Source of the DNA: Deltaproteobacteria bacterium
Lineage (GTDB): Bacteria; SAR324; XYD2-FULL-50-16
NCBI GenBank assembly: GCA_029881655.1
Contig: JAOUME010000014.1
Coordinates: 1 to 34,945 of the forward strand
DNA length: 34,945 nt
Direction of reading: 5' to 3'
Positions 4,536-25,213 of this stretch are shown piece after piece (the first letter of the stretch is position 1; each line of letters starts with the position of its first letter). The position numbers were made by a program, and so were the translations under genes. The notes under the pieces were generated by a model. The model ran no database searches. It was given only the letters and a program-made list of their open reading frames with translations, and was not told where the DNA came from.

Positions 4536-4675
4536 TAACCAATCCCTGTCCAAGAGGTTTTTTAAAGGCGAAATGAAGAGGGCGACCGGGGATAAAAGCC
4601 GGGATTTGGGCTAAGGGTTTCGGGGGCAAAGAGGAAATGAGGGATTAGAAGGAATTTAGGGTGAGAAGATGGGAA

Positions 4676-4702
4676 GCCCCCTCTTTTTTATTAAGAGGGG
4701 GC
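4676..4702 (-). terminator. Strong hairpin after the carbonic anhydrase gene
   Basis: GCCCCCTCTT (4676-4685) pairs perfectly with AAGAGGGGGC (4693-4702), a 10-bp stem with a 7-nt loop beginning 7 bases past the carbonic anhydrase stop. The T-run (4706-4710) is on the plus-strand side. As a minus-strand terminator it lacks a clean U-tract, but its position fits the end of that gene. Confidence 0.55.
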
Positions 4703-4708
4703 AGGTTT

Positions 4709-7586: not shown

Positions 7587-7592
7587 CCCTGA

Positions 7593-8699: not shown

Positions 8700-9290
8700 A
8701 GCGCTTTCTCTCATATTAGGTTCATGTTTATGATTCAACTATTTGAATTATAATGTTATTGTCTTCTCTTCGCTGGTGGCGGTCCTGATGGCACTATCCG
8801 TTCCTTCGAACTCGGTTCACCCTGTGAAAACCTGACCCGATTAAAGCCTGGAAATGGCGATTAGCTTGAAGGTAGCTTGAGAAGATGATCGGCAGGGGTG
8901 CTTAACCCTTGAATTGGGTGATCTTCCCCCAGTATAGAGGAAATTCAGCAATGCCTAGAGTTGAATACCTATGCGTTTTGAATCAGCGTAGCACAGATAA
9001 AGCGGCACTGTACGAAAAAAAAATCAAGGAAATCAAATTTCTGGCCCGAGATACTCTTGAATGCCCGAGGGCACTGGGCTGGATGGAGTTCGGGGTTGGA
9101 CTCGCGGCTGTCCTCCGCCGTCTTTTCCCGCACGACATCACTTTATACCCGGCATGGGCAAGTGGGGCCATTTCGCGGGTAAGGGGTGAAATCTTATTTG
9201 GGGCAGGAGTTATGGGGCTGGCGGGATTTTTGGACCTACCCGGGTGGAACTCAAGCCCCTTAATCGGGCAGGAGTTTGGGTCATTGTCAG
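8700..9290. other. Intergenic region holding repeat copy B
   Basis: About 590 bases between the DUF1611 start and the M14 hydrolase stop. It contains the second 71-bp repeat (9107-9177) and probably the DUF1611-racemase promoter near 8730-8760 (AT-rich). A plus-strand frame of 184 codons (8909-9463) runs through it but overlaps the M14 gene by about 170 bases and shows no recognisable domain, so I do not call it a gene. Confidence 0.5.
9107..9177 (+). repeat. 71-bp direct repeat, copy B
   Basis: Identical to 6394-6464 in the same orientation. Read on the minus strand, one frame gives WPHLPMPGIK, which lines up codon for codon with PHLPMPEL in the DUF1611 protein. The repeat may therefore be a dispersed element or a duplicated coding scrap. 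Confidence 0.9.
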
Positions 9291-10283
9291 TTAAATCGCG
9301 TCAGTCTTGGGGAGTTGATAGCCGAAGGCGAAAACCTGTTTTCCGGGATAGACCGCCGAATTGTCCGCGTGCCCTAAAAGGATTCCCGAGTGTTTGCCGT
9401 AAAGGGTCTCGATGGGACGGCCGAAAATGTCGTAGACCTGGGCGATCTTTTGCCTTTCTCTGATCCGGTCTCCCGGCTCAACGAAGTAGCGGATGATGCC
9501 GGCTTTTGTCGTCAGGGGAAGGTTATGATACATCAATTCGCCCCAGCCGCTTTTTTTCCTGTCGGGCATGATGGGAAATCGCTCCTCAAGAGGCTCAACC
9601 ATCTCAAGATAAACCAATAGATTCCAAATCGCGCTCAGCCCAAGGATAATGTTTTTTTCGTTGATCACATAGGATTCCCCCAATTCGAGCGTAATGGCGG
9701 GAATCTTTTCTCTAAGACAGGCGTGGCTCAGGGAGCCATAGACCGTCTCCGAATCCCTGACGACCAAAATCCCGGTCTTCTTCAGATATTCTCCACAAAG
9801 ACTCATCGCTTCGGGGTCGAGGTCGGGTATGGGCGCATCCAGAAGGCCGTATGGTACCGAATGGATCCAGTCGTGATGCAGGTCGATAACCAGGCTCGGC
9901 TTGTTCTCCAGGATGGTAGAGAATATCTTTTCAGCGATTCTCTGACCCAGAGAACCGGTCGCTTTTCCCGGAAAGGACCGATTCAAATCCTCTCCGGAAA
10001 GCGAGATAAACCGGTTCGCCGTTTCGAACCCGATGGGATTCATCAAAGGTATGGCGTTGATTGTTCCCTTTAGAAGACTTTTCTTGCGCAGTTTGCGGAA
10101 TACCTCGTGGATGATCGCCATGCCTCCGATCTCCTCTCCATGACCACAAGCGGTCAGCCAGATATCAGGACCTTCTTTTAACCCCCTGGCGCACATCAAC
10201 GGCAACTTTCTTTGGGAGAAATCCGACGCCGTTAAAATCTTTAGAGTCGAATAGTGAAAACTCGTTTGCGATTTGTTCATCAT
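9291..10283 (-). CDS. M14-family succinylglutamate desuccinylase/aspartoacylase-like hydrolase
   Basis: Zinc-dependent amidohydrolase that removes an acyl group from an N-acyl amino acid. The 330-residue product has the zinc-binding CGHGEE (His48, Glu51), the arginine motif NPIGFETANRF with EDLNRSFPG, the third ligand in DLHHDW, and the catalytic glutamate in LELGES. A C-terminal beta domain (YHNLPLTTKAGII ... VEPGDRIRERQKIAQVYD ... SGILLGHADNSAVYPG) has the biotinyl-lipoyl-like fold usual for the AstE/ASPA branch. No signal peptide, so cytoplasmic. It lies on the same strand as the racemase and DUF1611 genes, about 550 bases upstream of them, and may serve the same amino-acid-derivative pathway; that link is inference. 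Confidence 0.85.
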   Translation of the reverse strand: MMNKSQTSFHYSTLKILTASDFSQRKLPLMCARGLKEGPDIWLTACGHGEEIGGMAIIHEVFRKLRKKSLLKGTINAIPLMNPIGFETANRFISLSGEDLNRSFPGKATGSLGQRIAEKIFSTILENKPSLVIDLHHDWIHSVPYGLLDAPIPDLDPEAMSLCGEYLKKTGILVVRDSETVYGSLSHACLREKIPAITLELGESYVINEKNIILGLSAIWNLLVYLEMVEPLEERFPIMPDRKKSGWGELMYHNLPLTTKAGIIRYFVEPGDRIRERQKIAQVYDIFGRPIETLYGKHSGILLGHADNSAVYPGKQVFAFGYQLPKTDAI

Positions 10284-10371
10284 AGCTCAAAAGCCTGACA
10301 GTTGGATTGATTTACAATGTTTAAGGTAGTTGACGCGGTCGGTTTAACGGCGTGAACAAGTAAAGGGACCT

Positions 10372-11322
10372 TTATTTAATTGGCCGATAACCCTCTTCTT
10401 CCCAAGTCAGAAAGTGGCTTCCGATCACCGCCGACGTGTTGAGAATGATCACCAGCGCCCCTGGATCCAACTGGTAGACGATGTCCTTCAAACGACCGGT
10501 TTCGGTCATATTGATAATGGTATAGACGATATCGGTCTCCTTTTTGCTATAGCCCCCGCGCGCGTTCAGGAAGGTTACTCCCCTGTCCAACCCCTTCATG
10601 ATGCCCGAGGCCACGGCCTCGTGATAGTTTGTTATGATCATGACCGCGTTTCTTTGAGAAAACCCTGATTGAACCTTGTCGATCATCCACGCGTTGCAAA
10701 AGATATAGATCCCTGAATAGAGCGTCGTCTGGAGATCGTTGAACGCGAAGGCGCAGAGCAGGACAAAGAGGTTAAACAGGTTGAAGGTCGTTCCCAGCGG
10801 TATGGAAAAACGCTTTCTGATATAGGTCCCCAGGATATCGAGACCTCCGGCCGAGCCTCCGAACCTGAAATAGAGCCCGTTCCCGAAACCGGCGAAAACG
10901 CCCGCGAAAATCGCTGTGATCAGTTTGTCTTCCACGGGAAATGAAATGCCCTTTGTCAGCTCGAAAGACAGGGAGGAAATGATTGTTCCGATCAGGGAAA
11001 TAAGAATGAATTTAGGGCTTATTTTTCTCCAGCCCAAAAGAAAGAGGGGGATGTTCAAAACGAAATAGATTACCCCAAGCCTCCAGCCATCAGAAAGATA
11101 AAAGATAATCAAGGAAACGCCGGTCAGTCCGCCGGAAAAAAGTTCTTTCTGGATGATCAGTCCGTTGATCCCTAGGGCGAAGATCGGAATTCCAATCGAC
11201 ATCGACAGAATCGTGCGCCAAAAAACAATCCCCCGGACATCGTCAATCAGTTCCTTCCAGTCGTCTAACCCTTGCTGACGAAGTTTCTTGATTCGGTCCC
11301 TGGAAAATCTCATGTGCCTCAA
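10372..11322 (-). CDS. YitT-family integral membrane protein (DUF161 + DUF2179)
   Basis: The 316-residue product begins with a charged cytoplasmic segment (about 35 residues), followed by five or six hydrophobic helices: TILSMSIGIPIFALGINGLI, GVIYFVLNIPLFLLGW and FILISLIGTIISSLSFEL, then a glycine-rich block FAGFGNGLYFRFGGSAGG that is a hallmark of the family. The C-terminal soluble DUF2179 domain follows from about residue 225 (AVMIITNYHEAVASGIMKGL ... GRLKDIVYQLDPGALVIILN), resembling a small ligand-binding ACT-like fold. The transport substrate of the family is not settled. It is monocistronic and divergent from the binding-protein gene at 11839. Confidence 0.9.
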   Translation of the reverse strand: MRHMRFSRDRIKKLRQQGLDDWKELIDDVRGIVFWRTILSMSIGIPIFALGINGLIIQKELFSGGLTGVSLIIFYLSDGWRLGVIYFVLNIPLFLLGWRKISPKFILISLIGTIISSLSFELTKGISFPVEDKLITAIFAGVFAGFGNGLYFRFGGSAGGLDILGTYIRKRFSIPLGTTFNLFNLFVLLCAFAFNDLQTTLYSGIYIFCNAWMIDKVQSGFSQRNAVMIITNYHEAVASGIMKGLDRGVTFLNARGGYSKKETDIVYTIINMTETGRLKDIVYQLDPGALVIILNTSAVIGSHFLTWEEEGYRPIK

Positions 11323-11838
11323 TCGATAGCTCGCGCCTTTAAACCATCCGCGGTGTTCTTCAATGTCAGGTGGCGGAGGCTTCGGTTATAAGCGAACATC
11401 ACACGTCCGCTCCGGTCTCGTTTAAGACTGGAACCAGCCTATTTCTGACGTTATCCCTAGCCATTCCGGTTGTCAATTTCAATGCAATCATATCAGATCA
11501 GGAAGGTCATTTCTAGCGCTATTTTTCCAGGGGAGAATTCAGATTGACGCAATTAACTGCTATGAATCATTCGTTTTCATGTTGCCTCCTCTGGATTGTG
11601 TACTAATTATTTCAATTATAACCTGCGAGGCAGTTCTTGTTTAGTGCAATTTTAGATTACCATAGGTACTTTACAGTACCATTTAATTTTCATCAAATAA
11701 TCTATTTTTCAAAGTCTCCCTAAATTTTACCAGATCAAATCATAACAAAATTTTAATTATTTTTCTTGTTGAATCACTAAAGATAAATTAATATCAAATA
11801 AACCTTATTTTGATTTTAAAAATACAAAGGAAAGACAA
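11323..11838. other. AT-rich divergent intergenic region
   Basis: This 516-base gap separates the YitT gene (minus) from the binding-protein gene (plus). Composition shifts sharply from mixed to AT-rich at about 11580, which likely marks the left edge of the accessory block that continues to 16.4 kb. No ORF of interest; a promoter is annotated separately. Confidence 0.5.
11766..11794 (+). promoter_or_regulatory. Candidate sigma70 promoter for the binding protein-kinase genes
   Basis: TTGTTG at 11766-11771, a 17-base spacer, then TAATAT at 11789-11794, 45 bases before the ATG at 11839. An AAAGGAAAG ribosome binding site follows at about 11826-11834. The spacing and match are good, but the whole region is AT-rich, so a chance match is possible. 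Confidence 0.5.
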
Positions 11839-13020
11839 ATGTATAAATATTCAGCTATATTACTGTTTTATTTGATTTATAATATCTCATTTGTTTATGC
11901 TGCTGTCAGACCGGTCCTAATAGCATTTGATGGCGAATATGGTCTTCAAAACAGCACTTCAGCTCAAATGATCGAAAAGGGTCTCCGTATAGCTATCAAA
12001 GAGATTAATGATCAAGGAGGTGTTTTAAATGGCAGGCAGCTAGGATTAATCACCAAAGATAACAGGTCTGTTCCGGCAAGGGGAATCCAAAACGTCAAAG
12101 AATTTGCAGAAAACAAGGATGTTGTCGCTGTTGTCGGGGGCCGTTTTAGTCCTGTTATCCTCAGTGTTATACCAATAGTTCATGAGGAAAAAATTATTCT
12201 GATGGATGCCTGGGGTTCAGCTGATAAAATCACAGATCATGATTATCAGCCGAGTTTTACTTTCAGGGTATCTTTAAGGGATAAATACGCTATGCCGACC
12301 ATGATAAAACATGCAATATCAAAAGGTGGTAAAAAAATCGGTTTACTACTGCCAAATACAGGCTGGGGAAGAAGTAATCAAAAGGCTGCCCGCAAATATA
12401 TTAAAGAATCCAAATCTGATATCCAGTTAAAGGAGATTTGGTATAACTGGGGGGACAAGGATTTTATAACAGCTTATGAAACCTTTTTACAATGGGGAGC
12501 AGAAAGTTTATTGATGGTCGCCAATGATATTGAAGGTTCACTGGTTGTCCGTTTGGCAGCTAGTTATCCTGAAAAAAAAATTTTACCAATCATAAGTCAT
12601 TGGGGGGTGACTGGCGGTTATTTTGTTGAGGCCTGCCAAGGATCACTGGATAAAATTGATTTTTCTGTAGTACAGACATTCAGTCTCTTCAAAGCTGATC
12701 CTGCCATCCGTGCCAAAGTAATGAAATATGCTGGGGAAATGTTTGGAATAAAAGATATCAAAGATATCCAATCACCTGTCGGCTTCGGCCATGCTTACGA
12801 CATTGTTCATCTTTTAGCAAAAGCCATTGAAGCTGCAGGTTCCTCTGACCGCTCTAAAGTCCGAGAAGCTTTAGAGGAAGTCAGTGATTATAGAGGCCTG
12901 GTAAAATATTACAAAAAGCCTTTTAGTCCAACAGATCACAATGCACTGGAAATGAGTGATGTCTTTATGGCAGTTTTTGATAAACAGGGAGTTTTAAAGC
13001 CGATAGAGACCAGAAAATAA
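11839..13020 (+). CDS. Periplasmic amino-acid-type binding protein (Leu/Ile/Val-binding family)
   Basis: The 393-residue product has a signal peptide (MYKYSAILLFYLIYNISFVYA) and a Peripla_BP_6/LivJ-type fold. The N-terminal segment includes GLRIAIKEINDQGGVLNGRQ and VVAVVGGRFSPVILSVIP, followed by GKKIGLLLPNTGWGR, and near the C-terminus AYDIVHLLAKAIEAAG. These are standard class I binding-protein elements for branched-chain amino acids, amides or similar ligands. No permease or ATPase genes are nearby; the next gene, 20 bases on, is a membrane histidine kinase. It therefore probably acts as the ligand receptor of that kinase rather than a transporter component. The gene is much more AT-rich than the backbone genes. 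Confidence 0.88.
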   Translation: MYKYSAILLFYLIYNISFVYAAVRPVLIAFDGEYGLQNSTSAQMIEKGLRIAIKEINDQGGVLNGRQLGLITKDNRSVPARGIQNVKEFAENKDVVAVVGGRFSPVILSVIPIVHEEKIILMDAWGSADKITDHDYQPSFTFRVSLRDKYAMPTMIKHAISKGGKKIGLLLPNTGWGRSNQKAARKYIKESKSDIQLKEIWYNWGDKDFITAYETFLQWGAESLLMVANDIEGSLVVRLAASYPEKKILPIISHWGVTGGYFVEACQGSLDKIDFSVVQTFSLFKADPAIRAKVMKYAGEMFGIKDIKDIQSPVGFGHAYDIVHLLAKAIEAAGSSDRSKVREALEEVSDYRGLVKYYKKPFSPTDHNALEMSDVFMAVFDKQGVLKPIETRK

Positions 13021-13040
13021 CTTTTTTAAAAGAGTTGGAG

Positions 13041-15683
13041 ATGAAGTTAAGTTTGGCAGCAAGAATAACCCTGGCAATAACTACTATCTCTATATTCTTT
13101 ATCTGCGGAATCGCCACCTTCTCTTATCTAAATCTCAGCAAAGCTTATGAAGAAAGCTCTCGGGAAATACTTGAGTCTAACATTAAAGCTTTCGCCGACA
13201 TCCAAACCAGCCTTATAAACGGAATCTTTGAAAACCAAACAGAAATGTCAGCCAATACTTTAATTGGCAATGCAATTGTTGATGATTTGGGGCGGGATGT
13301 TTATCTGGTTAATTTTTTTTCAGGTTATAAAATTATTGAAGGAATCAATGTCCAAATATTAATGACTGATTTTAAAGGTGATATTCTTGCTAAAAATGAT
13401 CCAAAATCCTCTCTTTTAATAGACCAATCCTGGGTTTCTGAGGCAATTGATAAAAACATTACCCTTGCTGTTGTTAAAAACTGCTGTGGAGATCAATATT
13501 TAGTGATAACTAAACCTATTATCTTTGCTAATACAGGTCTACCTGAAGGAGGACTAATCTATCAGTTTTCTTTAAAAAAGCTACTTAATTTAAAAGAAGT
13601 CAAACAACATATTTTCACCTCTGATCAAATAACCGGAGGTCAGCTTACCTATCTGGATTTAAAAACCAAAGAAACAGGAACAATTATTATAGGCAAGAAA
13701 ACTAAAAATGCTTTGGTTGAATCTGTAGATTTATCTTTAAACCATGACTTGCAAAATATCAAGTTTTCCATAAGCATCTTTAGTGATAAGGGTATTCTTC
13801 AGAAAGCTTTGGAGAGTATTTTTTCCAAATTCCTTCTCCTTGGGATTATTTCTATTATTCTGGCATTTTTTCTCAGTTTGTTAATATCTAGATTTTTAAC
13901 CAACAGGATAAAGGAACTTGAGAAAAATGCTAATGAAATTGCCAATCAAAGTGATTTTTCCAAACGTTTGACAGTTAGAGGTAAGGATGAAATCACTAGT
14001 TTTTCAAAAGCTTTTAACTATGTCCTTGAACGACTGGAAGAAATTAACAGGGATATGGAGAATCAGGCCCAAAGCAATATCCGTAAACTTTATAGAGCAA
14101 TAGAGCAAAGTCCTGTCTCTGTTGTAATCACTGATCTGGATGCGAACATTGAATATGTAAATCCAAAGTTTTCTAAATTGACGGGTTATAGTTTTGAAGA
14201 AGTTTTGGGACAAAATCCTCGAATCCTCAAATCAGGGAGCCAATCGCAAGATTTTTATCACAATATGTGGGAACAACTAACAACAAAAGGCTTATGGCAG
14301 GGAGAATTGATCAATAAAAAAAAAGATGGAGAACTCTATACTGAGAATGCCTCGATCTCTGTAATTTTAGATGAAAACGGAAAACGGTCTCATTATGTTG
14401 CTGTTAAAGAAAACATTACACAAAGAAAGACTTATGAGATTTCTTTAAAAGCTGCCAAAGATGAAGCGGAAAAAGCCAATTTGGCAAAATCTTCTTTTCT
14501 GGCAAATATGAGTCATGAAATCAGAACACCAATGAATTCCATTCTCGGTTTCGCAGAACTCCTTTCATATGATTCCCAAAATAGTAAGGATAGAAACTAC
14601 CTAAAATCAATCCAGGTCGCAGGCAATACTTTGATGGTTTTAATCAATGATATTCTTGATTTATCTAAAATCGAAGCCGGAATGTTGGACATCAATCCTG
14701 AACCTGTTGATTGTATTCAGATAATGAATGAAATAGAAATGGTTTTTGTACAAAAAATTAAAGAAAAATCCTTATTTTTTGAAGTTGAAATAGATCAGGA
14801 TAACTCTGAGTTGTTAATGATTGATGAATTTAGGTTAAAACAAGTATTATTAAACCTTGTTGGAAACGCAGTGAAATTTACTGAAAACGGCGGTATCAAA
14901 CTGGTTTTAAATATTACTGCTTCTGGTGAAGACATGGTAGACCTGAAAATCTCGGTTATAGATACAGGCATTGGAATCAGAAAGGAGGATCAAAACAGAA
15001 TTTTTAATCATTTTCAACAGCAGAATAGCAAAATCTCAAAAAAATATGGAGGTACAGGACTTGGACTGACAATTTCAAAACAACTAGTAAAGATGATGAA
15101 TGGAGAGATTACTTTAAAAAGCCAGGAAGGCAAAGGATCGACATTCATACTTACTTTATACCAAGTGCCAATTTTTAAAACTGATAATAAGAAACCAAGC
15201 AAAGAAGATTCATTTGATTTACATAAAATTTCCTTCAAACCATATCATGTTTTGATTGTAGATGATATGGAAATGAACCGCTATTTGGTAAAAGAAACCT
15301 TGATCCGCTGCGGTTTAAAAGTTATTGAGGCTGACAATGGTGAAGCAGCGGTTTTTATTGTTCGTGAACGTAAGCCGGATTTAATCTTAATGGATTTACG
15401 GATGCCCATCATGAATGGATTTGAAGCAACAGAAGTAATCAAGCAAGATCAAAATCTAAAGAATATCCCAGTAATTGCCTTGACAGCTTCACATCTGGAT
15501 TTCAGTGAAGGCTCGGTCAATCATAAAATATTTAATGGATTTTTACTAAAACCTGTAAAGATTGAAGAATTAGTCAATGAATTAAAAAGATTTTTAAGCC
15601 TTGAAAATAAACCTGTTAAAAGCAATCATATTAAAAACAATCATAAAAAATTCATATTAGAATTGCCGAATGATAAAAAATGA
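13041..15683 (+). CDS. Hybrid sensor histidine kinase (sensor-HAMP-PAS-HisKA-HATPase-REC)
   Basis: Inner-membrane two-component sensor of 880 residues from ATG 13041 (TTG 13035 is in frame but less likely). Order: TM1 about 8-28; a periplasmic sensor of about 235 residues, probably Cache-like; TM2 about 264-285; HAMP to about 340; PAS about 345-460 (SPVSVVITDLDANIEYVNP); HisKA with SHEIRTP and phosphoacceptor His492; HATPase with NLVGNAVKF, DTGIGI and GTGLGL; and a receiver with VLIVDD, phospho-Asp785 (LILMDLRMP) and the KP motif. No DNA-binding output. It starts 20 bases after the binding-protein stop, which likely presents ligand to the sensor domain. A short overlapping ORF follows it. AT-rich, like its neighbour. 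Confidence 0.93.
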   Translation: MKLSLAARITLAITTISIFFICGIATFSYLNLSKAYEESSREILESNIKAFADIQTSLINGIFENQTEMSANTLIGNAIVDDLGRDVYLVNFFSGYKIIEGINVQILMTDFKGDILAKNDPKSSLLIDQSWVSEAIDKNITLAVVKNCCGDQYLVITKPIIFANTGLPEGGLIYQFSLKKLLNLKEVKQHIFTSDQITGGQLTYLDLKTKETGTIIIGKKTKNALVESVDLSLNHDLQNIKFSISIFSDKGILQKALESIFSKFLLLGIISIILAFFLSLLISRFLTNRIKELEKNANEIANQSDFSKRLTVRGKDEITSFSKAFNYVLERLEEINRDMENQAQSNIRKLYRAIEQSPVSVVITDLDANIEYVNPKFSKLTGYSFEEVLGQNPRILKSGSQSQDFYHNMWEQLTTKGLWQGELINKKKDGELYTENASISVILDENGKRSHYVAVKENITQRKTYEISLKAAKDEAEKANLAKSSFLANMSHEIRTPMNSILGFAELLSYDSQNSKDRNYLKSIQVAGNTLMVLINDILDLSKIEAGMLDINPEPVDCIQIMNEIEMVFVQKIKEKSLFFEVEIDQDNSELLMIDEFRLKQVLLNLVGNAVKFTENGGIKLVLNITASGEDMVDLKISVIDTGIGIRKEDQNRIFNHFQQQNSKISKKYGGTGLGLTISKQLVKMMNGEITLKSQEGKGSTFILTLYQVPIFKTDNKKPSKEDSFDLHKISFKPYHVLIVDDMEMNRYLVKETLIRCGLKVIEADNGEAAVFIVRERKPDLILMDLRMPIMNGFEATEVIKQDQNLKNIPVIALTASHLDFSEGSVNHKIFNGFLLKPVKIEELVNELKRFLSLENKPVKSNHIKNNHKKFILELPNDKK

Positions 15684-15879
15684 AATTCAAAAACTCAAAT
15701 TAGAGGTTGATTCACTGTTGATCCCTCTCTGGAAAAAATTGGATTCTTATTTTGAACTAGATGATATGCTTCAGTTTGCTAAAATATTACATCAGCTAGG
15801 AGAAAAATTTAAACTAATGTCTTGGAATAATTTCGCCGAAGAATTGAAGGAAAAGACAAATCATGTTAAGGTAGTGTAA
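15670..15879 (+). CDS. Small protein resembling the C-terminal tail of hybrid kinases
   Basis: The 69-residue product (MIKNEIQKLKLEVDSLLIPLWKK...) starts 14 bases before the kinase stop in another frame. Its pattern (L-x-x-L-W-x-x-L-x-x-Y-x-x-D-D-M-x-x-F-A-x-x-L-H-x-L-G) matches the helical segment that often follows the receiver domain of hybrid kinases, as I know such proteins. There is no Hpt-type histidine motif. It may be a naturally split tail expressed by translational coupling, or the result of a frameshift in the kinase gene. Confidence 0.6.
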   Translation: MIKNEIQKLKLEVDSLLIPLWKKLDSYFELDDMLQFAKILHQLGEKFKLMSWNNFAEELKEKTNHVKVV

Positions 15880-15972
15880 AGATTTATGTGTGAAATTGAT
15901 CTGAGGTAGAAAAAAAGGTATTTCTCCCCTAAGGTATGATTGCGAGATCAACCCAATAAAGGAGAAATATCC

Positions 15973-16204
15973 ATGAAACTGGAGATTACAGTAGCGGAAG
16001 CGCAAGAATTGATCAAGGGAATCAGTACACCAGAGAGCTTTTTGGATTCGACGCGCTTTGACGCTCAAGAGGCGGTCGGGGACTTTCTCTCTCAGCTGAT
16101 GGCGGTGAGTTAAGCGAGTTTTTAGGTCGTCAGCCCTATGAAAGGAAAGAAGCGAATTCAAACCACCGCAATGGAAAATACGAACGCAAGCTCATCTATT
16201 GCTT
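15973..16204 (+). pseudogene. IS256-family transposase remnant (frameshifted, truncated)
   Basis: An ATG at 15973 opens a frame (MKLEITVAEAQELIKGI...) that stops after about 46 codons. A shift of frame near 16100 continues in good IS256/mutator style: GGELSEFLGRQPYERK followed by SNHRNGKYERK, the block where family members read FLGxxxYER...xNHRNG. The catalytic DDE region is missing; the sequence stops resembling a transposase near 16204. The stretch before it (15905-15972) contains GGTATTTCTCC and, inverted, GGAGAAATATCC, perhaps a transposon end. The remnant marks past insertion in this block. Confidence 0.7.
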
Positions 16205-16432
16205 TAATCTTATTTGCCTCTACTTGAATTTTTGCCATTGGTATTAAATGGTTTGGTTCCTATAACAATCCAGTCGCGTAACATATCTTCTCAAATAATA
16301 TCTTGGCTGGTCCAGTTGATTTGCTTACTTTTTCTAAAATATTAAAATCTCGCGCTTTCACCTCCAAAATCAATTATGTTCAAAACCCTATTATATCCGT
16401 TATTTAAGATCAACGACTTTTAACCGCCCTTT

Positions 16433-16556
16433 CCGTGAAACATTTTTTGGCCTCCGTTTTTCGCGGGATAACTGCTTAAAACACCAAATAAATCAAATAG
16501 TTGTAAAAGCGGGTACCCGAAAACAGGGGTAGTTTGTGCGACCTGATGTTTCACGG
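16433..16556 (+). repeat. MITE-like element, left inverted copy
   Basis: A 124-bp unit with terminal inverted repeats CCGTGAAACAT (16433-16443) and ATGTTTCACGG (16546-16556). It is the inverse of 19099-19223: about 65 bp at the inner side and about 35 bp at the outer side are nearly identical, and the middle has diverged. Weaker similarity continues outward for about 45 bp. The 228 bases between the transposase remnant and this unit hold no recognisable gene. Confidence 0.8.
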
Positions 16557-16587
16557 CCTTGATCATACCCAGAGTCCTTTGAGCGGC

Positions 16588-17745
16588 TCAGGGTTGGTTT
16601 AAGGGCAACTGCTCCTGGTAGACGGGATAGAAAATGGGCTCCTTGTTTTCATAGCCGATCCGCTTGCGCCGGCCCTCGTCCAGCAGGTGGTAGGTCACCA
16701 GCACCTCCAGCCGGTCGTACCTGGCCCGCTCGGCATCACTCACCTCGAAGCGGAAGCTCCGGGTCTGGTTATAAAGCAGCCGCGTATCTTCAAGCTCGAT
16801 AATGAAAGGCCGCCACATGAAGCGCCGCTTGAGTTTCCAGCTCTCCTGCCGCCCCGGATTGCCCTGGCGGTCCACCAGCCTCATGCTTAAGGTCAGGTGC
16901 CTGTCCGGCGTGCCGGTCGGCAGGGCATGCGCCGCCTTGATATTGGTCAGGCTCGCCGTGATGGCTTGGCCCCCCCGGGTTTGCTCCCGGCTGAGTTCGA
17001 CCTTGAGGGACTCCTTGACGCTGGGTGGATGATGGCCACCCCGGAAGAGATGCCTTCCGACTTGACGGCTCGGGAAGCCTTCGACCAGCGGCCTCTCGGT
17101 CTTGGGCAGGTGGCAGCTCACGCAATCGGCCTTCTGGCCTCCCTGCCTGATTTCCATGACCGTGCCGCAGGGCGGAATCTTGAAGAAGACGTCCCACCGG
17201 TCATTGGTGACCTGATGGCATTGCCGGCAGCTGTAGATGCCCTCCGCCATCTCCGGGACCGCCCGGACGGCGTGGGGCGCGTCGGGTCTCTCGATCGGGC
17301 CGATGATCCTGCCGTCCCGGACGTGGCAGACCGCGCAGGTCACTCCCTCCTGTTGCAAGGCTCGGTCGAAGTCGGGGTTCGGCTTTAAGATGGGATCGAA
17401 GCGCTCGGAATCCCGAAACCCCAGCACCAGGTTCTCCTGCTGATTCTCCAGCGGTATATGGCAGTTAAGGCAGATCTGCTGGGAGCCATCGAAGGCGAAG
17501 TCCACCTGATAATAAGGGTCGGTCCAGGCTTTGGCGTGCATGCTCTTAGACCACTCTTCATAAATCGCCTGATGGCAGGAGCCGCAATAACTCGCGCTGA
17601 GCGATTCGATTCCCTCGGGCATTTCAACCTTCATCGGTAGGGCAAAGCGGTCTTCCACCACAAAGATGTTCATTGGGCGAAAGAACCTCCAACCGAAAAA
17701 AGCGATCAGACACAAGGCCAGTACCAGCCATAGCTTCTTTTTCAT
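16588..17745 (-). CDS. Membrane-anchored pentaheme cytochrome c
   Basis: Periplasmic electron-transfer protein of 385 residues. An uncleaved signal or membrane anchor (about residues 3-20) precedes five CxxCH sites: CGSCH (54-58), CLNCH (92-96), CAVCH (137-141), CRQCH (173-177) and CVSCH (208-212), spaced in the style of cytochrome c554-type multiheme domains. The last 150 residues carry no heme site and have a beta-sandwich character with the family phrase HALPTGTPDRHLTLSMRL. It follows the TVP38-rhodanese gene by 57 bases on the same strand, probably one operon. GC-rich composition and the inverted repeats suggest acquisition by transfer. The redox partner is not evident. Confidence 0.9.
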   Translation of the reverse strand: MKKKLWLVLALCLIAFFGWRFFRPMNIFVVEDRFALPMKVEMPEGIESLSASYCGSCHQAIYEEWSKSMHAKAWTDPYYQVDFAFDGSQQICLNCHIPLENQQENLVLGFRDSERFDPILKPNPDFDRALQQEGVTCAVCHVRDGRIIGPIERPDAPHAVRAVPEMAEGIYSCRQCHQVTNDRWDVFFKIPPCGTVMEIRQGGQKADCVSCHLPKTERPLVEGFPSRQVGRHLFRGGHHPPSVKESLKVELSREQTRGGQAITASLTNIKAAHALPTGTPDRHLTLSMRLVDRQGNPGRQESWKLKRRFMWRPFIIELEDTRLLYNQTRSFRFEVSDAERARYDRLEVLVTYHLLDEGRRKRIGYENKEPIFYPVYQEQLPLNQP

Positions 17746-17802
17746 GCTCTCTCCATATCGCGAGTCAATAGCGCTCGGAACATCCGGCTCGTCTCCTATG
17801 GT

Positions 17803-18792
17803 TTATGCGGGGTCTTCCTGGTTTGAGCGCAAGGAAAAGCCCTTTTCGCTCCATTGCTTTATGCCTCCATCCACGACGGCAACTTTTTGGAATCCTTCCT
17901 TCCTAAGTAGTTCATAGGCTTTGAAGGATCGAATCGAGGTGGTACAGATCAAAGCGATGGGTTCCTCCTTATAGCCTAAAAGCCCGTCCATGCTCTCTCG
18001 CAGCCGGGCCAGCGGGATGTTTTGCCCTTGTGGAATGAAGCCTCTGGAGCGGTAGTCCTCCTCATCTCGAAGATCCACTAGCAACAATTCGGATCCACTT
18101 AGGCCTTCTTTCAACTCCTCCACGCTCATCATGGCGGGCTTGCTACTTTTGCGAGCGAGATAGAGCTTGGGGAGATAGATCACCAGCGCCAACAATCCCA
18201 AGGCCAGCAACGCCTGAGGTCCGATTTGCGCCAGATTGTCCTGCCCGGCCAGAGCATTTTTGCCGACCACCCCGATATAGGTATAGACAAAGGCGCCCGG
18301 AAGCATGGCCAGATAGGTCACAGCCAGATAGGTCCAAAAGCGGATGCGGGTCAAACCGAGAGCGTAGTTGAGCAGATTGAAGGGGAACAGGGGGATCAGC
18401 CGCACGAAGGCGACGAATTGCCAGCCTTCCCGCTCCACGCCCTGTTTCAACTGGGCCAGCCTTCCCCGGGTTTTGGATTCCACCCAGTCTCCAAGAAGGT
18501 GTCTGGCCGCGAGAAAGGAAAGCCCCGCTCCCACGGTGGCTCCGGTGAGATTGTAAAAGGTGCCGGGGCCCAGGCCGAAGACCGCCCCGCCGGCCAGGGT
18601 GAGCAGGGAGCCCGGCAGAAACAGCAAGGTCGCCAAAGCGTAAAGCCCCATAAACAGAAAAGGCCCGGCCCAGCCAAAGCCTTCCACCCAGGCCCGCAAA
18701 TCAAATGAGGCAAACGCCTGACGGTTCAGCAGAGTCCAGGCGATTCCAGCCAATATCAGCGCGGCGACAACCAGCCTTATAAGCTTCTTCAG
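17803..18792 (-). CDS. TVP38/TMEM64 (DedA-like) membrane protein fused to a rhodanese domain
   Basis: The N-terminal ~210 residues form a SNARE-associated TVP38/TMEM64 domain: several hydrophobic helices, LPGSLLTLAGGAVFG, then the signature FVRLIPLFPFNLLNYALGLT. The C-terminal ~110 residues are a rhodanese (LLVDLRDEEDY, RGFIPQGQNIPLARL, ALICTTSIRS with the active cysteine, VDGGIKQW). Fusion suggests membrane-linked sulfur or redox handling, alongside the adjacent cytochrome. The start is unclear. No ATG fits; TTG 18753 lacks a Shine-Dalgarno sequence, whereas a perfect AAGGAGG sits 4 bases before an in-frame CTG at 18792 that restores a natural N-terminus (LKKLIRLVVAALILAGIAW). I annotate from CTG, with moderate confidence in that choice. 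Confidence 0.85.
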   Translation of the reverse strand: MKKLIRLVVAALILAGIAWTLLNRQAFASFDLRAWVEGFGWAGPFLFMGLYALATLLFLPGSLLTLAGGAVFGLGPGTFYNLTGATVGAGLSFLAARHLLGDWVESKTRGRLAQLKQGVEREGWQFVAFVRLIPLFPFNLLNYALGLTRIRFWTYLAVTYLAMLPGAFVYTYIGVVGKNALAGQDNLAQIGPQALLALGLLALVIYLPKLYLARKSSKPAMMSVEELKEGLSGSELLLVDLRDEEDYRSRGFIPQGQNIPLARLRESMDGLLGYKEEPIALICTTSIRSFKAYELLRKEGFQKVAVVDGGIKQWSEKGFSLRSNQEDPA

Positions 18793-19442
18793 ACATCCTC
18801 CTTGGAACGGTGGTTGAAAGTTTATCGCTCAATCCCTGGTAGGGCCGGCCGGGTTGAAAGAGCGATGAATCCGGCTCGGTCAAGACCGCCACCAGGCATA
18901 AATCCTGCTGTCAAGCCCCAAACGCAAGCGCATTGTACTTAAAAGGTTAATGGATGGCGCGGCTGGAGTCAAGCGGGCAATCTTAAGCGGAGCTTCCGGC
19001 CAGCGGAGGTCAGGCGAGGTTTGGCCCGGCGGGGGCTGGAGAATCGGCCAGGCTCAAACCGATTTCGGAGCCAAACGGGGCTCTGGTTATGGCCTAGGCC
19101 GTGAAACATCAGGTCGCGCAAACTACCCCTGTTTTCGGGTACCCGTTTTTACAACCAGTTGAAATAAAAGGGAAATTGAGGTCGATTTCTTTTGGAAAAC
19201 GGAGGCCAAAAAATGTTTCACGGAAAGGAAGGATAAAAGACGATGATTTCAAATAGCTGATATAAAAGGTATTAATAATGATTGGATTAGAGGGTGGAAT
19301 AGGGCCGCTCTATCGGATTTTACCCCTTCAACGCGCAAATAAGCGAAGATTTATCTACGATTGAATCCCGCCGCTTAATTGAGGCGGAATATCACGAATC
19401 GAATTATGACGGAAATAAATTAGAGGGGATGTTTCTAACCGG
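18793..19442. other. Gap with the right MITE-like copy and a decayed frame
   Basis: The first 300 bases are GC-rich with no recognisable gene. The right inverted element is at 19099-19223. From 19303 a frame stays open to 19518 without a usable early start (QISEDLSTIESRRLIEAEYH then YDGNKLEGMFLTGW) and looks like coding debris; I cannot assign it. Confidence 0.4.
19099..19223 (-). repeat. MITE-like element, right inverted copy
   Basis: A 125-bp unit with ends CCGTGAAACAT (19099-19109) and ATGTTTCACGG (19213-19223), inverted relative to 16433-16556. The inner part has a perfect palindrome CGGGTACCCG near 19136-19145. Outward similarity to the left copy continues to about 19260. Confidence 0.8.
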
Positions 19443-19500
19443 CTGGAAATTTTGGAGCGAGAAACCGGATTCGAACCGGCGACCCCAACCTTGGCAAGGT
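19443..19500 (-). repeat. attL-type 58-bp direct repeat with partial tRNA-Gly
   Basis: Bases 19443-19500 equal 23306-23363 exactly. The repeat holds the 3' 48 bases of tRNA-Gly (CCA end, T-arm and most of the anticodon arm) plus 10 bases beyond the CCA. After 19500 the tRNA sequence breaks off. This is the signature left when an element integrates into a tRNA gene. Confidence 0.9.
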
Positions 19501-19805
19501 AGGATTAACCAACATTAATTTTGACAAAAAACATGTAAAACCAGTATGGTAATGGTTTTGCGCGACTTTTAATCAACGCAGGATTTCAGTCTCAAATCCC
19601 TTCGAAACCCCCTGAAATGCGCAACTATACGTCTCGGTTTGTCACCATTCTGTCACCAAAAAAGGATTGAATGGGTGGGGAATGATTTTACACTAGCTAT
19701 GGAGAAAGGAAAATACTATTGATTTTGGAAGATATATTGCCATGCTTCCTTCCACAACTAATAAGTTACCCTGGACCCAGATATATCTCGGTTTGTTTCT
19801 AATTT
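19501..19805. other. Left-end non-coding region of the island
   Basis: About 305 bases without a gene. It holds two TGTCACC direct repeats at 19640-19646 and 19651-19657, 11 bases apart (about one helical turn), which may be arm-type recombinase binding sites or transcription factor sites. Confidence 0.45.
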
Positions 19806-20984
19806 TTATTTCGAGTCAACAGATGGAAATTTGAAATGGATTGGGGGCTTTTCCTTGATAGATATTTCAATAAAATATTGAATCGATAGAATTAAATGTA
19901 CTTCGTCGATTTTTGATTCATCTAATCGATTTTCTATATTTGGGAAAAGTTCAGGATCAAATGGACAATTTCGATTGACATCAACTAAGGCAGTATCAAA
20001 AAGAAGTCCTTCAGCTTGGCCATAGTTATCATCAAGCAAATAGACCTTTAAAGTTTTACCATTGGGAGTTTTGCAAGTTCCTAGTAAATTATTGTTCCCC
20101 GGTTGTGATTCGAAGCCGATACAATGGGGATTATTAAAAAACTCTTCTTTTTGACGCCACCATAAGTTTGTGAAGATTACCGGGTTTTCTAAGTTAAGCC
20201 TGTCAACTTGGTCAAATAGCTGGTTTATTTCACTAAGGGTTCCAATCTCTTCAGACTTGGAAAGTAAGTTGTGTAAAATTATACTTTCTTCTTCACCAAC
20301 CATCTGTTTAGCAAATGTGGTTTCAAACATTACATTGTTTGTTAATGTATCTGTAAAAATGCTTTTTGGTATTGAGCGACTTATTGTGATGGGTTTACCA
20401 TTGTTCCCTATGCAAAAATTATAATTCCCTAGAATTTGATTTAGTCGAAGTTCTTTATCGTAACTTTCTTTAATTTGACTGTTAAATACCTCTAAATTTC
20501 TTGTGATGTCTGCCTTTTTTGTGTTTTCTTGGTATTTGTCATTGGCTACATTGTAGCAATCTTTAAACCACTGTAGAGCTGATCCTTTGCCAGGTTTATT
20601 TAATTGATCTTTTAACCATGGCCAATCACTTGCCTCAGTTGGTTCATTTTCACTCTCCAGAATATGTCTAATTGATCCGAAGTCATTTCTTTGGCGAAAT
20701 ATGCCACGAAAGAATTCTGGGTTTTTTTCAATCTGTAAAATAAGGTTACTGTCTAAGCGATATGGGGGTGAATGAACCAAAATAATTGCACTTAGAATAG
20801 TAATGAACCTATGGTAACCAACAAAAAATGTATCTTCTTTATGTTCCTCCCATAAAAGCCAATTATTTTCATATTTTGAAATATGTTTATCTTTCTCAGG
20901 TATAATTAAAGAAACAACATTTTTAGAAAGTTTGGAAACGATTTCTATAAAATCCTGTTCAAAAAATGGAGAAGGTTCAGACAC
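19806..20984 (-). CDS. Hypothetical soluble protein, tRNA-Gly island cargo
   Basis: I do not recognise this 392-residue protein. It has no signal peptide or membrane helix and is acidic to neutral, rich in Asn, Glu, Phe and Ile. The N-terminal half looks helical (DFIEIVSKLSKNVVSLIIPE, KYENNWLLWEEHKEDTFFVG); a WLKD and LQWFKDCYNVANDKYQEN segment follows. The C-terminal third looks beta-rich (CIGFESQPGNNNLLGTCK, TLKVYLLDDNYG, GLLFDTALVDVNRNCPFD) and ends in HLILSIQYFIEISIKEK. It starts 63 bases after the upstream membrane-protein gene on the same strand, so they are probably co-transcribed. Its AT-rich composition and location suggest a mobile accessory function such as defence, but no domain proves that. 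Confidence 0.75.
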   Translation of the reverse strand: MSEPSPFFEQDFIEIVSKLSKNVVSLIIPEKDKHISKYENNWLLWEEHKEDTFFVGYHRFITILSAIILVHSPPYRLDSNLILQIEKNPEFFRGIFRQRNDFGSIRHILESENEPTEASDWPWLKDQLNKPGKGSALQWFKDCYNVANDKYQENTKKADITRNLEVFNSQIKESYDKELRLNQILGNYNFCIGNNGKPITISRSIPKSIFTDTLTNNVMFETTFAKQMVGEEESIILHNLLSKSEEIGTLSEINQLFDQVDRLNLENPVIFTNLWWRQKEEFFNNPHCIGFESQPGNNNLLGTCKTPNGKTLKVYLLDDNYGQAEGLLFDTALVDVNRNCPFDPELFPNIENRLDESKIDEVHLILSIQYFIEISIKEKPPIHFKFPSVDSK

Positions 20985-21047
20985 TTCTTGTTCTCTTGCG
21001 TTGCTCTTCCACTCTTTATGTTTCTTATAAGCCCGCTGAAGATAAAT

Positions 21048-22742
21048 TTATCCTAACCCAATTAGACTTTTCTGGACACCTGATTCTATAGCTTGTGGAT
21101 AATTGTTAAACTGTTGTAAAACTAAATTGAAAGAATTCTGATCACTATATTTTAAAGCGTAGAAACCAAAATCTTGTAGTGATTTAAAAAGCCGAGGGAT
21201 CGATATTTTTTCAAAATAATTTTTTTTATCAACAGAGGGGAACTCATTATCTAAAGTGTGCCCGATACCCCACAATAAAGACCCAATGCGTTGGATTTGC
21301 AATCTAACAACATCAGTTCCACGAGTTGTCCTCAGTTCTTGTTGGAGAAGGTAGTAAGCTTGAGTTGAAAATAAGTCAATAATTGAGACCAATGCAGACT
21401 CACATTGCTTATCATAAATCAACAGTGCCAATATTCTTTGTTGAAGATTTGCTAAAATGACCACACTTGAAAGATCAATAGGTGTTCGATCCAATGCTTT
21501 AAAATAAGCTTCTACAATAAAATCGAAGATCAGATCACGATAGTCTATGTAATGGTCATCAAAGTAGGATTGGGAGTAGTGGTAATTAACATAATTAGAT
21601 TTCTCTAAAAGTATCATAATCTGCTCCTCTAATTGATGAGGTAAAGCTAAGGTCTCATTTTGAAGAGTATATCTGATCAATTCTTCTAACCTTCTGACTA
21701 ATGCTGGAGCTGGAAAGCGTCCCGGTTTAATTGTAACACATTTTTTTAAATTTCTTTTCAAATCTTCTTCTTGTGAAAACATAGGTTTCCATTGCTTTGG
21801 AATATACACAGCAACCAATAAGTCTCCAAAACGGCAATCTTTATTTTCACCAACATTGATTTCGATGAAAGAAGGTTTTTGTTCATCTTCCTCTAAATAA
21901 TTATTCCAAAATTGTTTCACTTTTTCATCGATTTCTTTTATTCGTCCGGAATCAATCGATGAAATAAAACCATTATCTTCAGCCCTTATTTTTATTATTC
22001 GAAAATCCGGTAAAGGGTTGTACCATGTAGTGACTTGTTTTTTTGAGAATTGTGTTGTGTTGCTTTTAAGGAAACGATCCATCGAAGTCACATGATCTTT
22101 AAGGACCTTATATCTTTCCAAATCTTGAATCTCATAAAAATATACAATCCGAAGGATACGTATAAATAAGATCAAAGTAGATAAGATAGAAAAAAAGGGA
22201 ATTAATATTGAAACCTTTTCATCACTAACTAATCCAAGATAACCCATTGTTGTGCTGAGAATTATTGATATTGGTACTGCCCAAGAATAATGGAGGTACA
22301 ATTCCCACTTTGGAATAAGTTCATTAACAGATTTTGAACGAGTTTCAAGAATTAGAATGATTAATGGAAATAATATTGATAAAGATGTAGCAGCAATAGC
22401 TATATAATTAGTTTTACTAACTATCTCTTTAGAATGTGTAAAATCGGTGATCCAACTATGAGAGCTAACGACTTCGAGCAGATGTAATGCAAATGGCCAA
22501 AGAAACAACCAAAAGAAAAAAGTTGACCAATGTGGGGCTGTCAACCGCCTCCCAGTAGCTTTTGCCCAATACCAAAGACTTACGTTTGTGCTGAAAGGTT
22601 CAGTTTCATATATTGCAAATGATAGAAAACTTAAAATAAAAAGGATGTAGGTTAAGTATATTGAATAATCATAAAACCAAAATAATCCCCCAAGTATAAT
22701 CAAAAATACTGGAAATATCCAACTAAACCATTTTTCATCCAT
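21048..22742 (-). CDS. Hypothetical multi-pass membrane protein, tRNA-Gly island cargo
   Basis: I do not recognise this 564-residue protein. The first ~205 residues hold about six hydrophobic segments (near 6-24, 28-46, 72-92, 110-135, 150-172 and 177-198). A charged linker follows (RIVYFYEIQDLERYKVLKDH), then a cytoplasmic region of about 340 residues. That region is mostly helical in its last half (PHQLEEQIMILLEKSNY ... YRDLIFDFIVEAYFKALDRT ... LALLIYDKQCESALVSIIDL). No nuclease, ATPase or protease motif is visible. The tail repeatedly alternates Leu, Ile and Asp/Glu as in helical repeats. It precedes the soluble gene at 19806 by 63 bases; the pair is the sole cargo of the island. Confidence 0.78.
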   Translation of the reverse strand: MDEKWFSWIFPVFLIILGGLFWFYDYSIYLTYILFILSFLSFAIYETEPFSTNVSLWYWAKATGRRLTAPHWSTFFFWLFLWPFALHLLEVVSSHSWITDFTHSKEIVSKTNYIAIAATSLSILFPLIILILETRSKSVNELIPKWELYLHYSWAVPISIILSTTMGYLGLVSDEKVSILIPFFSILSTLILFIRILRIVYFYEIQDLERYKVLKDHVTSMDRFLKSNTTQFSKKQVTTWYNPLPDFRIIKIRAEDNGFISSIDSGRIKEIDEKVKQFWNNYLEEDEQKPSFIEINVGENKDCRFGDLLVAVYIPKQWKPMFSQEEDLKRNLKKCVTIKPGRFPAPALVRRLEELIRYTLQNETLALPHQLEEQIMILLEKSNYVNYHYSQSYFDDHYIDYRDLIFDFIVEAYFKALDRTPIDLSSVVILANLQQRILALLIYDKQCESALVSIIDLFSTQAYYLLQQELRTTRGTDVVRLQIQRIGSLLWGIGHTLDNEFPSVDKKNYFEKISIPRLFKSLQDFGFYALKYSDQNSFNLVLQQFNNYPQAIESGVQKSLIGLG

Positions 22743-23112
22743 AAATATGTTTTTAAAAAAGATTGAAATTTTTAATAATGATTTCTTGAAAGTTCGATTT
22801 AATTCATTTTTTGATTACAAAAATACTAACATAAATCCGTCAACTTGAAAATGCATTTGTTTTTAATGAGATAGGGGGAATCTCTAAAAAACCGAATATT
22901 GATCTGCTTTTTGGATGTAGAAATATTAAGGACAGAATATCTTGTGACTTCATTCCGATTGATCCAACAGTAGATCACCCTCAATGTAATCTTTTACCGT
23001 TTCCTTACATTTCCTCACGCCAGTCTGCTAAAACTATTGATTTTACGCTCTAATTTAAACAATAGTAGGTCATCAATTCCTCAAAACCTTTCATTATTTT
23101 AAGGAGACAGAG
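22743..23112. other. Non-coding stretch upstream of the island genes
   Basis: About 370 AT-rich bases, probably containing the promoter of the two island genes. A plus-strand frame of about 65 codons without a start (IDLLFGCRNIKDRI then CDFIPIDPTVDHPQC) stops near 23052 and may be coding debris. Confidence 0.4.
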
Positions 23113-23214
23113 ATGACAAAACCAGTCGGTCAAAAAAATCCGTTTACAAAAATACAGGTGAAGGCAATCAAGAAGATTTTACTCGGTGAAAATAACCTGC
23201 GAGTGAATTGCTAA
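23113..23214 (+). pseudogene. Truncated tyrosine recombinase (phage-type integrase) N-terminus
   Basis: An ORF of 33 codons (MTKPVGQKNPFTKIQVKAIK...) with a strong AAGGAGACAG ribosome binding site 6-8 bases upstream. From memory of the family, the N-terminal portion of some tyrosine recombinases reads QVKAIRxILxxExNLRDLALF. Here the match stops right after the NLR and becomes VNC-stop. All catalytic parts (R, H, RHxxH, Y) are absent. It lies about 90 bases from the tRNA-side repeat, where an integrase gene of this type would sit. Confidence 0.55.
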
Positions 23215-23252
23215 GTTGGACTTTGAAACTGTTAATTTGATGGAAAGGATCT

Positions 23253-23274
23253 GTCACAAATGAGGTTTTGTGAC
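23253..23274. repeat. Inverted repeat near the right end of the island
   Basis: GTCACAAA (23253-23260) and TTTGTGAC (23267-23274) are exact inverted repeats 6 bases apart, about 30 bases from the att repeat. The core TGTCAC recurs at the other end of the island (19640, 19651). Confidence 0.5.
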
Positions 23275-23305
23275 GATGATGCGACTTAGGTGTGACTCTA
23301 ACCTA

Positions 23306-23363
23306 CTGGAAATTTTGGAGCGAGAAACCGGATTCGAACCGGCGACCCCAACCTTGGCAAGGT
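23306..23363 (-). repeat. attR-type 58-bp direct repeat within tRNA-Gly
   Basis: Exact copy of 19443-19500. It overlaps the 3' 48 bases of the intact tRNA-Gly and extends 10 bases past its CCA. Confidence 0.9.
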
Positions 23364-23391
23364 TGTGCTCTACCAACTGAGCTATTCTCGC
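23316..23391 (-). tRNA. tRNA-Gly (GCC), island integration site
   Basis: Complete 76-nt cloverleaf on the minus strand: acceptor GCGAGAA/TTCTCGC, anticodon stem with loop TTGCCAA giving GCC, T-arm GGTTCGAATCC, encoded CCA. Its 3' part is duplicated at 19453-19500. Last of a run of six tRNAs on the same strand. Confidence 0.95.
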
Positions 23392-23402
23392 TTCATTTTT
23401 TG

Positions 23403-23488
23403 TGGTACGAGAGGGGAGACTCGAACTCCCACATCGTTAAGATACCAGATCCTAAATCTGGCGCGTCTACCAATTCCGCCACTCTCGC
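23403..23488 (-). tRNA. tRNA-Leu (TAG)
   Basis: 86-nt class II tRNA with a long variable arm (TATCTTAACGATGT region). Anticodon stem CCAGA/TCTGG encloses TTTAGGA with anticodon TAG; acceptor GCGAGAG/CTCTCGT with encoded CCA. Confidence 0.93.
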
Positions 23489-23506
23489 GGCTGTTTTACC
23501 CCATGA

Positions 23507-23583
23507 TGGTGCGCCTGGTAGGATTCGAACCTACGACCTTTGGATTCGAAGTCCACTGCTCTATCCAGCTGAGCTACAAGCGC
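23507..23583 (-). tRNA. tRNA-Arg (TCG)
   Basis: 77-nt cloverleaf; acceptor GCGCTTG pairs with CAGGCGC (one G-T pair), anticodon loop CTTCGAA with TCG, T-arm GGTTCGAATCC, encoded CCA. Confidence 0.93.
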
Positions 23584-23589
23584 GTAGTC

Positions 23590-23666
23590 TGGGGCGAATG
23601 ACGAGGCTTGAACTCGCGACCGCCGGAGCCACAATCCGGTGCTCTACCAACTGAGCTACATCCGCC
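23590..23666 (-). tRNA. tRNA-His (GTG)
   Basis: 77-nt tRNA with the extra G at position -1 opposite the discriminator C, diagnostic for tRNA-His: the 8-bp acceptor GGCGGATG pairs with CATTCGCC. Anticodon stem CCGGA/TCCGG with loop TTGTGGC, anticodon GTG; CCA encoded. Confidence 0.95.
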
Positions 23667-23677
23667 GTAATACGTTC

Positions 23678-23754
23678 TGGTACGCCCGAGAGGATTCGAA
23701 CCTCTGACCTACTGATTAGAAGTCAGTTGCTCTATCCAGCTGAGCTACGGGCGC
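23678..23754 (-). tRNA. tRNA-Arg (TCT)
   Basis: 77-nt cloverleaf; anticodon stem ACTGA/TCAGT encloses CTTCTAA with anticodon TCT. Acceptor GCGCCCG/CGGGCGT with encoded CCA. Second arginine isoacceptor in the cluster. Confidence 0.93.
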
Positions 23755-23785
23755 ATCAGTCACCCATCATTCATCTCACAAGGCC

Positions 23786-23863
<78 letters not shown>

Positions 23864-24667: not shown

Positions 24668-25213
24668 TTATTTTATTAAAACATTATAGGCGTTATCAAA
24701 CAGGGTCTTTTCAGTTTCTATCTTACGTATAATCTCTCGGTCAAAGGCGTTTAAGAAATCTTCCAAGTAGGTTTCTACGTTAAACCAGTATTGCCCAGAT
24801 TTAATTTCAACGATTCCCATTGTATCTCCATTCTTGAGCATTGAAATAGCGCTTTTACCTTTAATATAATACTGATGGGCCATGCCGTTGCGAAAAGTAT
24901 CATATATTTTGTTGTTTCTCTTTAACAATGTTTCATATCCCCTTCCGAGTTTTTTAAAAAACGCGTTAAATGTATCGGCATTATTTTCTGTTGTAATAAA
25001 TTTCCCGGCAAACTCCGTATAGCATAGCAAGGCCAAAGCCGCCATAAAGTTTCCTCCGCCGGCTTCTATACCGAGTTTCTTAAGTCCGGCTTTTCCATCT
25101 TCCGTCCTTGATATTTCGGCCAGTTTGATCTCCCTTTTAATATCGGTCTCTATAAACGAGCGTACTTCGGAAAGCTTTTTCTTAACTTCATCAATTTTTG
25201 AATCATCTGGCAT
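24668..25213 (-). CDS. Small helical protein with HEPN-like RNx3H motif
   Basis: The 181-residue protein is predicted mostly helical. Between residues 100 and 125 it reads KIYDTFRNGMAHQYYIKGKS, which contains R108-N109-x3-H113, the R-N-x3-H pattern of HEPN domains; such proteins are often RNases in toxin-antitoxin and defence systems, but some are inactive. The N-terminus is a charged helix (DEVKKKLSEVRSFIETDI). A GGGNFMAALALLCYTEFAG helix and a C-terminal amphipathic segment (YLEDFLNAFDREI) frame it. More AT-rich than rph. It lies immediately before rph (8-base gap), so transcription of rph may pass through it. No obvious antitoxin partner is adjacent. I am sure it is a gene, less sure of HEPN activity. 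Confidence 0.7.
   Translation of the reverse strand: MPDDSKIDEVKKKLSEVRSFIETDIKREIKLAEISRTEDGKAGLKKLGIEAGGGNFMAALALLCYTEFAGKFITTENNADTFNAFFKKLGRGYETLLKRNNKIYDTFRNGMAHQYYIKGKSAISMLKNGDTMGIVEIKSGQYWFNVETYLEDFLNAFDREIIRKIETEKTLFDNAYNVLIK

Follow-up and report, generated by a model that had tools for sequence, protein, structure and literature searches.

Integrative islands at tRNA genes and the tRNA-Gly unit

The marks by which Islander recognizes islands in tRNA genes are an intact tRNA gene, a displaced 3' fragment of it lying downstream in unchanged orientation, a length of 2-200 kb and, for a putatively active island, an integrase gene, and the sizes of such islands peak at 13.6 kb and 39.9 kb (PMC4383910). 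In E. coli, integrase-only islands that carry defence cargo have been described as well (PMC10121019).

The window analysed here (34,945 nucleotides) is the whole of contig C170, from a draft genome of 304 contigs with a completeness of 88.7%. It contains an exact direct repeat of 58 bp, which extends to 67 bp at 97% once its edges are counted and which bounds a unit of 3,863 bp (Table 1). The repeat consists of the last 48 nt of tRNA-Gly(GCC), one of six tRNAs within positions 23316-23863, together with 10 nt downstream; its inner edge lies within the anticodon arm, as with integration by tyrosine recombinases. The displaced 3' copy lies downstream of the tRNA gene with its orientation unchanged. 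When a 25-nt probe from the tRNA-Gly 3' part was run against the window, it found 2 sites, compared with an expectation of 0.00 (0 in 100 shuffles). The GC content drops to 33.3% between the repeat copies, whereas the conserved flanks have 50.1% and 47.6%. We also considered TGTCAC motifs near the unit ends as integrase arm sites and found no enrichment beyond chance. A second tRNA-Gly of the genome (CCC) resides in a Cys-Gly-Leu cluster on another contig (G000:C110, 1882-1957, locus L037) and is 88% like the repeat.

The locus resembles Islander islands in its intact tRNA gene, in the same-orientation 3' fragment downstream, in the anticodon-arm crossover and in a length above 2 kb (PMC4383910). 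It differs in having a stub of 33 codons where an integrase gene would be expected, and its 3.9 kb is far below both size peaks (PMC4383910). With the E. coli integrase-only islands it shares a small number of genes, the tRNA site and the lack of other mobility genes (PMC10121019), whereas its cargo matches no known defence family and its integrase is broken. The repeat, its place in the tRNA gene, the composition and the integrase match described below together support the view of the unit as a decayed integrative island, a remnant that is ordinary in kind: a tRNA-borne element minus its integrase. The same evidence bears out a sequence-only reading of this DNA, which had proposed a tRNA-Gly island delimited by an exact 58-bp att-like repeat.

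Table 1. Coordinates of the features of the tRNA-Gly locus in the window.
Feature	Position	Strand	Basis
Stretch from tig to tRNA-Gly, missing in relatives of two genera	4343..23315		Gene order in G007, G002 and G006
Outer att-like repeat, displaced tRNA-Gly 3' fragment	19443..19500		Exact repeat
Putative cargo gene, 3' part (392 aa): helical, then alpha/beta	19806..20984	-	ORF, low-confidence model
Open, coding-like stretch of 63 bp, from TAA to GTG of ORF 2	20985..21047	-	Coding score
In-frame TAA between the two ORFs	21048..21050	-	Read-through translation: 978 residues, sole stop
Putative cargo gene, 5' part (564 aa): TM region and helical cytosolic part	21048..22742	-	ORF, hydropathy, low-confidence model
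Tyrosine recombinase N-terminal stub, 33 codons	23113..23214	+	Alignment to WP_114865695.1
att-like repeat, tRNA side, 58 bp	23306..23363		Exact repeat; overlaps tRNA-Gly(GCC)
tRNA-Gly(GCC), intact, integration target	23316..23391	-	ARAGORN; Rfam tRNA, 71 bits

Integrase remnant

The stub stretch VGQKNPFTKIQVKAIKKILLGENN aligns with the N-terminus of WP_114865695.1 (L084), a tyrosine recombinase of 210 aa from a Sulfitobacter plasmid, with a score that was equalled in 0 of 2000 shuffles; the recombinase itself matches Phage_integrase with an E value of 1e-12. Three recombinases related to it match the stub at the same place, and between 0.3 and 0.7% of shuffles equal their scores. The recombinase family emerged from a search whose query joined the stub to a hand-written consensus, so that the shuffle alignment, and not that search, tests the stub itself. 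Scans of the viral contigs revealed no integrase N-terminal motif.

The frame of the stub stops at 23214, ahead of the catalytic domain (PF00589), and thus leaves no catalytic part, so that, on the known chemistry of tyrosine recombinases, this copy should not catalyse excision. The island has lost its integrase, and the integrase scrap reported from the letters alone is substantiated by the similarity to a tyrosine recombinase N-terminus.

Organization of the cargo

Both cargo ORFs share one reading frame, which runs from 22742 down to 19809 as 978 codons interrupted by a single stop (Table 1), and the listed start of ORF 2 (20984) is merely the first GTG past the TAA. The 63 bp ahead of this GTG contain no stop in frame; compared with coding stretches their coding score is at the 27th percentile, compared with non-coding ones it is in the top 4%, and we estimate the chance that such a stretch is open in the right frame at about 5%. 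No Shine-Dalgarno sequence precedes the cargo ORFs, which is uninformative on whether there are one or two genes, since housekeeping genes of this genome are also without one. The shared frame and the coding-like 63 bp favour a single broken gene; alone they are no proof.

Further evidence comes from a locus in G005, which represents another genus of the same family as the source organism. A search of 52 genomes of the phylum with the cargo gave a single lead, on contig G005:C24 (E 0.0135), where a membrane ORF of 231 aa is followed on the same strand by an ORF of 620 aa (locus L034, 4370-7103); in this one weak homologous locus found, the membrane and soluble parts thus adjoin. The membrane parts of the two loci match with a pairwise E value of 6e-5 and a z score of 6.4, whereas none of 42 hydrophobic control proteins exceeded 3.3. 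A collinear alignment of the 620-aa protein with the remainder of the window cargo protein is possible. Its best local match covers window cargo residues 551-661 and spans the TAA (hhalign p 0.047, z 3.6); in the junction control, one protein out of 137, which was ImmA/IrrE-like and unrelated, outscored it. Because this match covers both sides of the window TAA, the relative probably reads through the corresponding place. The G005:C24 locus is a likely, if unproven, homologue. In both loci a large helical protein comes after a membrane part, and the two have a similar C-terminal part and collinearity in common. They differ in that identity is about 22-24% and that the parts in G005:C24 lie in separate ORFs, on a contig that has a TrwC relaxase but lacks a tRNA.

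From the frame and its stop, which are observed, we infer that the cargo was probably one gene of about 978 codons, later broken by a nonsense codon. The sequence-only reading had seen two AT-rich minus-strand genes here; the long ORFs and the low GC content stand, whereas the common frame with its one TAA speaks against two separate genes. Two real operon genes, a membrane sensor or effector and a soluble partner starting at the GTG at 20984, would account for two long ORFs on one strand and for the separate membrane and soluble ORFs of the G005 relative, though these are split elsewhere; this arrangement is nevertheless unlikely, given one frame with one stop, the coding look of the 63 bp ahead of the GTG and the soluble ORF of the relative that covers both sides of the window stop. 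The proposal of a two-component membrane-plus-cytosol system lacks support, as the ORFs are most likely halves of one broken gene, and the pair is unfit for two-gene cloning or modelling before the stop codon has been checked. There is a smaller chance still that the TAA is a sequencing or assembly error and that the 978-codon gene is intact in the living organism: the draft state and incompleteness of the genome, and the occurrence of just one stop in 978 codons, would suit an error, but the neighbouring integrase is truly decayed, which fits real decay of the cargo.

Predicted protein and family searches

Hydropathy analysis of the cargo N-terminus revealed five segments above 1.6 (residues 5-23, 26-44, 74-92, 114-132 and 179-197), and the low-confidence model of the 5' part adds a long helix at residues 139-171, so that six TM helices are plausible; we read the charges as placing both ends in the cytosol. 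In the low-confidence model the remainder is mostly helical, with strands in the C-terminal third of the second part. The AlphaFold single-sequence models have mean pLDDT values of 45 and 40, too poor for a fold search. The predictions make a membrane-anchored, mostly helical protein the most likely product.

The impression from the letters alone that the cargo carries no known motif agrees with the absence of any significant match in Pfam, PADLOC, NCBIfam and PDB; among the PADLOC defence models only HerA appeared, with an E value of 0.021 and with the second ORF alone. The sole PHROG match, phrog_8353 (E 6.6e-5), was dropped, as it covers 32 residues and has chance-level matches elsewhere. 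The cargo, in which a TM region at the N-terminus precedes a helical soluble part, resembles DUF2254 (PF10011) in layout and size. DUF2254 also occurs in this genome, but a profile of 25 members showed no significant similarity to the cargo sequence, and kinship with this family was supported neither by the Pfam scan nor by hhalign or hmmsearch.

Searches of the genome contigs with each cargo half and with the whole protein yielded no homologue, and neither did searches of viral contigs, plasmids and phages (the latter two by tblastn; the whole protein up to an E value of 10). Among 192 relatives and 52 genomes of the phylum searched with the cargo, only the G005 locus stood out, and the same locus alone stood out when 383 genomes were searched with the G005 protein and a two-row profile; the other matches of the G005-protein search that we inspected (an ABC transporter, an ImmA/IrrE-like protein and similar) were rejected. 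Judged by these sequence searches, the cargo represents a new and very rare family. With no relative in the searched libraries and one weak relative in 383 genomes (two-sequence profile), the cargo represents unexplored protein space on mobile DNA. We regard it as quite improbable that the cargo stands for a mobile family of large, helical, membrane-anchored proteins that is restricted to the clade and forms a new phage-defence or element-maintenance system, its membrane and soluble parts being produced as one chain or, through splitting or stop-codon readthrough, as two, with the in-frame stops of both known loci regulatory and not a sign of decay.

The site in related genomes

In G007, G002 and G006, which belong to two other genera of the same family, the genes for the M16 peptidase, rph, the six tRNAs, tig, clpP, clpX, tRNA-Val and tRNA-Asp are ordered as in the window flanks, and in 2 of the three the extracted stretch also includes the S41 peptidase. 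In the window flank, positions 24668-25213 beside rph encode a protein of 181 aa that hits no Pfam family above the cut-off. The distance from tRNA-Gly to the start of the tig match is 141-241 bp in the three relatives versus 18,973 bp in the window, so that the unit bounded by the 58-bp repeat accounts for the tRNA-proximal 3.86 kb in an accretion of 19 kb. The limits of 19443-23363 given in the sequence-only reading accordingly hold for the repeat-bounded unit, while against the relatives the insertion is larger (Table 1). The empty site that the same reading had proposed to look for is seen only for the whole gap between tRNA-Gly and tig; a site lacking just the repeat-bounded unit was not found among the relatives compared, since G007, G002 and G006 lack all 19 kb.

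The remaining 15.1 kb from tig to the outer repeat (4343-19442) are missing from the same gap in the three relatives, and the window probe revealed no second tRNA-Gly fragment at their far end. This stretch encodes a double-domain carbonic anhydrase, an alanine-racemase-like protein, DUF1611, an AstE/AspA-type protein, an AT-rich pair of a binding protein and a sensor kinase, a multihaem cytochrome and a DedA-rhodanese protein, as well as what we read as a YitT-like membrane protein. As the pair of multihaem cytochrome and DedA-rhodanese protein is present elsewhere in G003 and G005, part of the 15.1 kb is probably relocated family DNA and not the cargo of one element. A tRNA-Gly near the DedA gene in these two genomes was rejected as an empty site, given that the arrangement differs and the two lie kilobases apart.

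The repeat could instead be a tRNA fragment duplicated by rearrangement and not an integration scar, in keeping with the lack of a relative whose site is missing just this unit and with the absence of the additional 15 kb from the relatives' gap, which implies that the area has been rearranged. We consider this very improbable, because the fragment corresponds to the 3' end of the tRNA, has the expected position and orientation and stops in the anticodon arm, and because the repeats enclose foreign-looking DNA with an integrase stub beside the tRNA-side copy.

Several smaller features of the 15.1-kb stretch were recorded. Positions 11839-15683 (+), with 35% GC, encode a Peripla_BP_6 periplasmic binding protein (E 8.6e-34) and an 882-aa sensor kinase with a receiver, and look like a second foreign segment. 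A 71-nt sequence at 6394-6464, in the gap that follows the carbonic anhydrase, recurs without change 2.7 kb away at 9107-9177, within or next to a short ORF. The carbonic anhydrase (4709-6277) is of the alpha type, and its two tandem domains, 77-85% identical in DNA, are a recent internal duplication.

Proposed history and function

Taken as a whole, the locus is best explained as a decayed tRNA-Gly island that has lost its integrase and carries one broken membrane-protein gene as cargo, a reading to which we assign a probability of roughly 0.68. It draws on the repeat of the tRNA 3' end, the 33% GC content, the stub, the single frame with its single stop, the coding-like 63 bp, the relatives without the insertion and the G005:C24 locus. 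It is weakened by the modest match of the G005:C24 soluble part, by the split ORFs and the TAG of that locus, by the chance that 63 bp are open and by the lack of an intermediate empty site.

Under this explanation, the element would have entered the anticodon arm of tRNA-Gly(GCC) through a tyrosine recombinase of the short family (about 210 aa), as the present anatomy suggests, and its insertion would have rebuilt the tRNA-Gly gene and pushed the old 3' end of that gene out to 19443. The integrase later shrank to its stub of 33 codons, which would leave the element unable to excise alone. The cargo would once have been a single gene whose protein began with five or six TM helices, continued with a long helical stretch in the cytosol and ended in an alpha/beta region; one in-frame stop now cuts the gene into two ORFs. 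The least secure step concerns the role of the cargo, which may have served the mobile element in an accessory function at the membrane, with phage defence or element maintenance as the most plausible options. Such a role is suggested by the company that genes of this kind keep in small islands (PMC10121019), by which analogy phage defence is possible; the function would now probably be lost or reduced.

The G005:C24 locus has a break of its own, with an in-frame TAG in the region between its separate membrane and soluble ORFs. Readthrough or suppression of the window TAA, yielding both a short and a long product, might be suggested by an in-frame stop at each of the two loci, but it is extremely improbable, as the stops differ in kind (TAA and TAG) and in place, which fits decay better. 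The G005:C24 contig also contains small genes resembling RelE and antitoxins.
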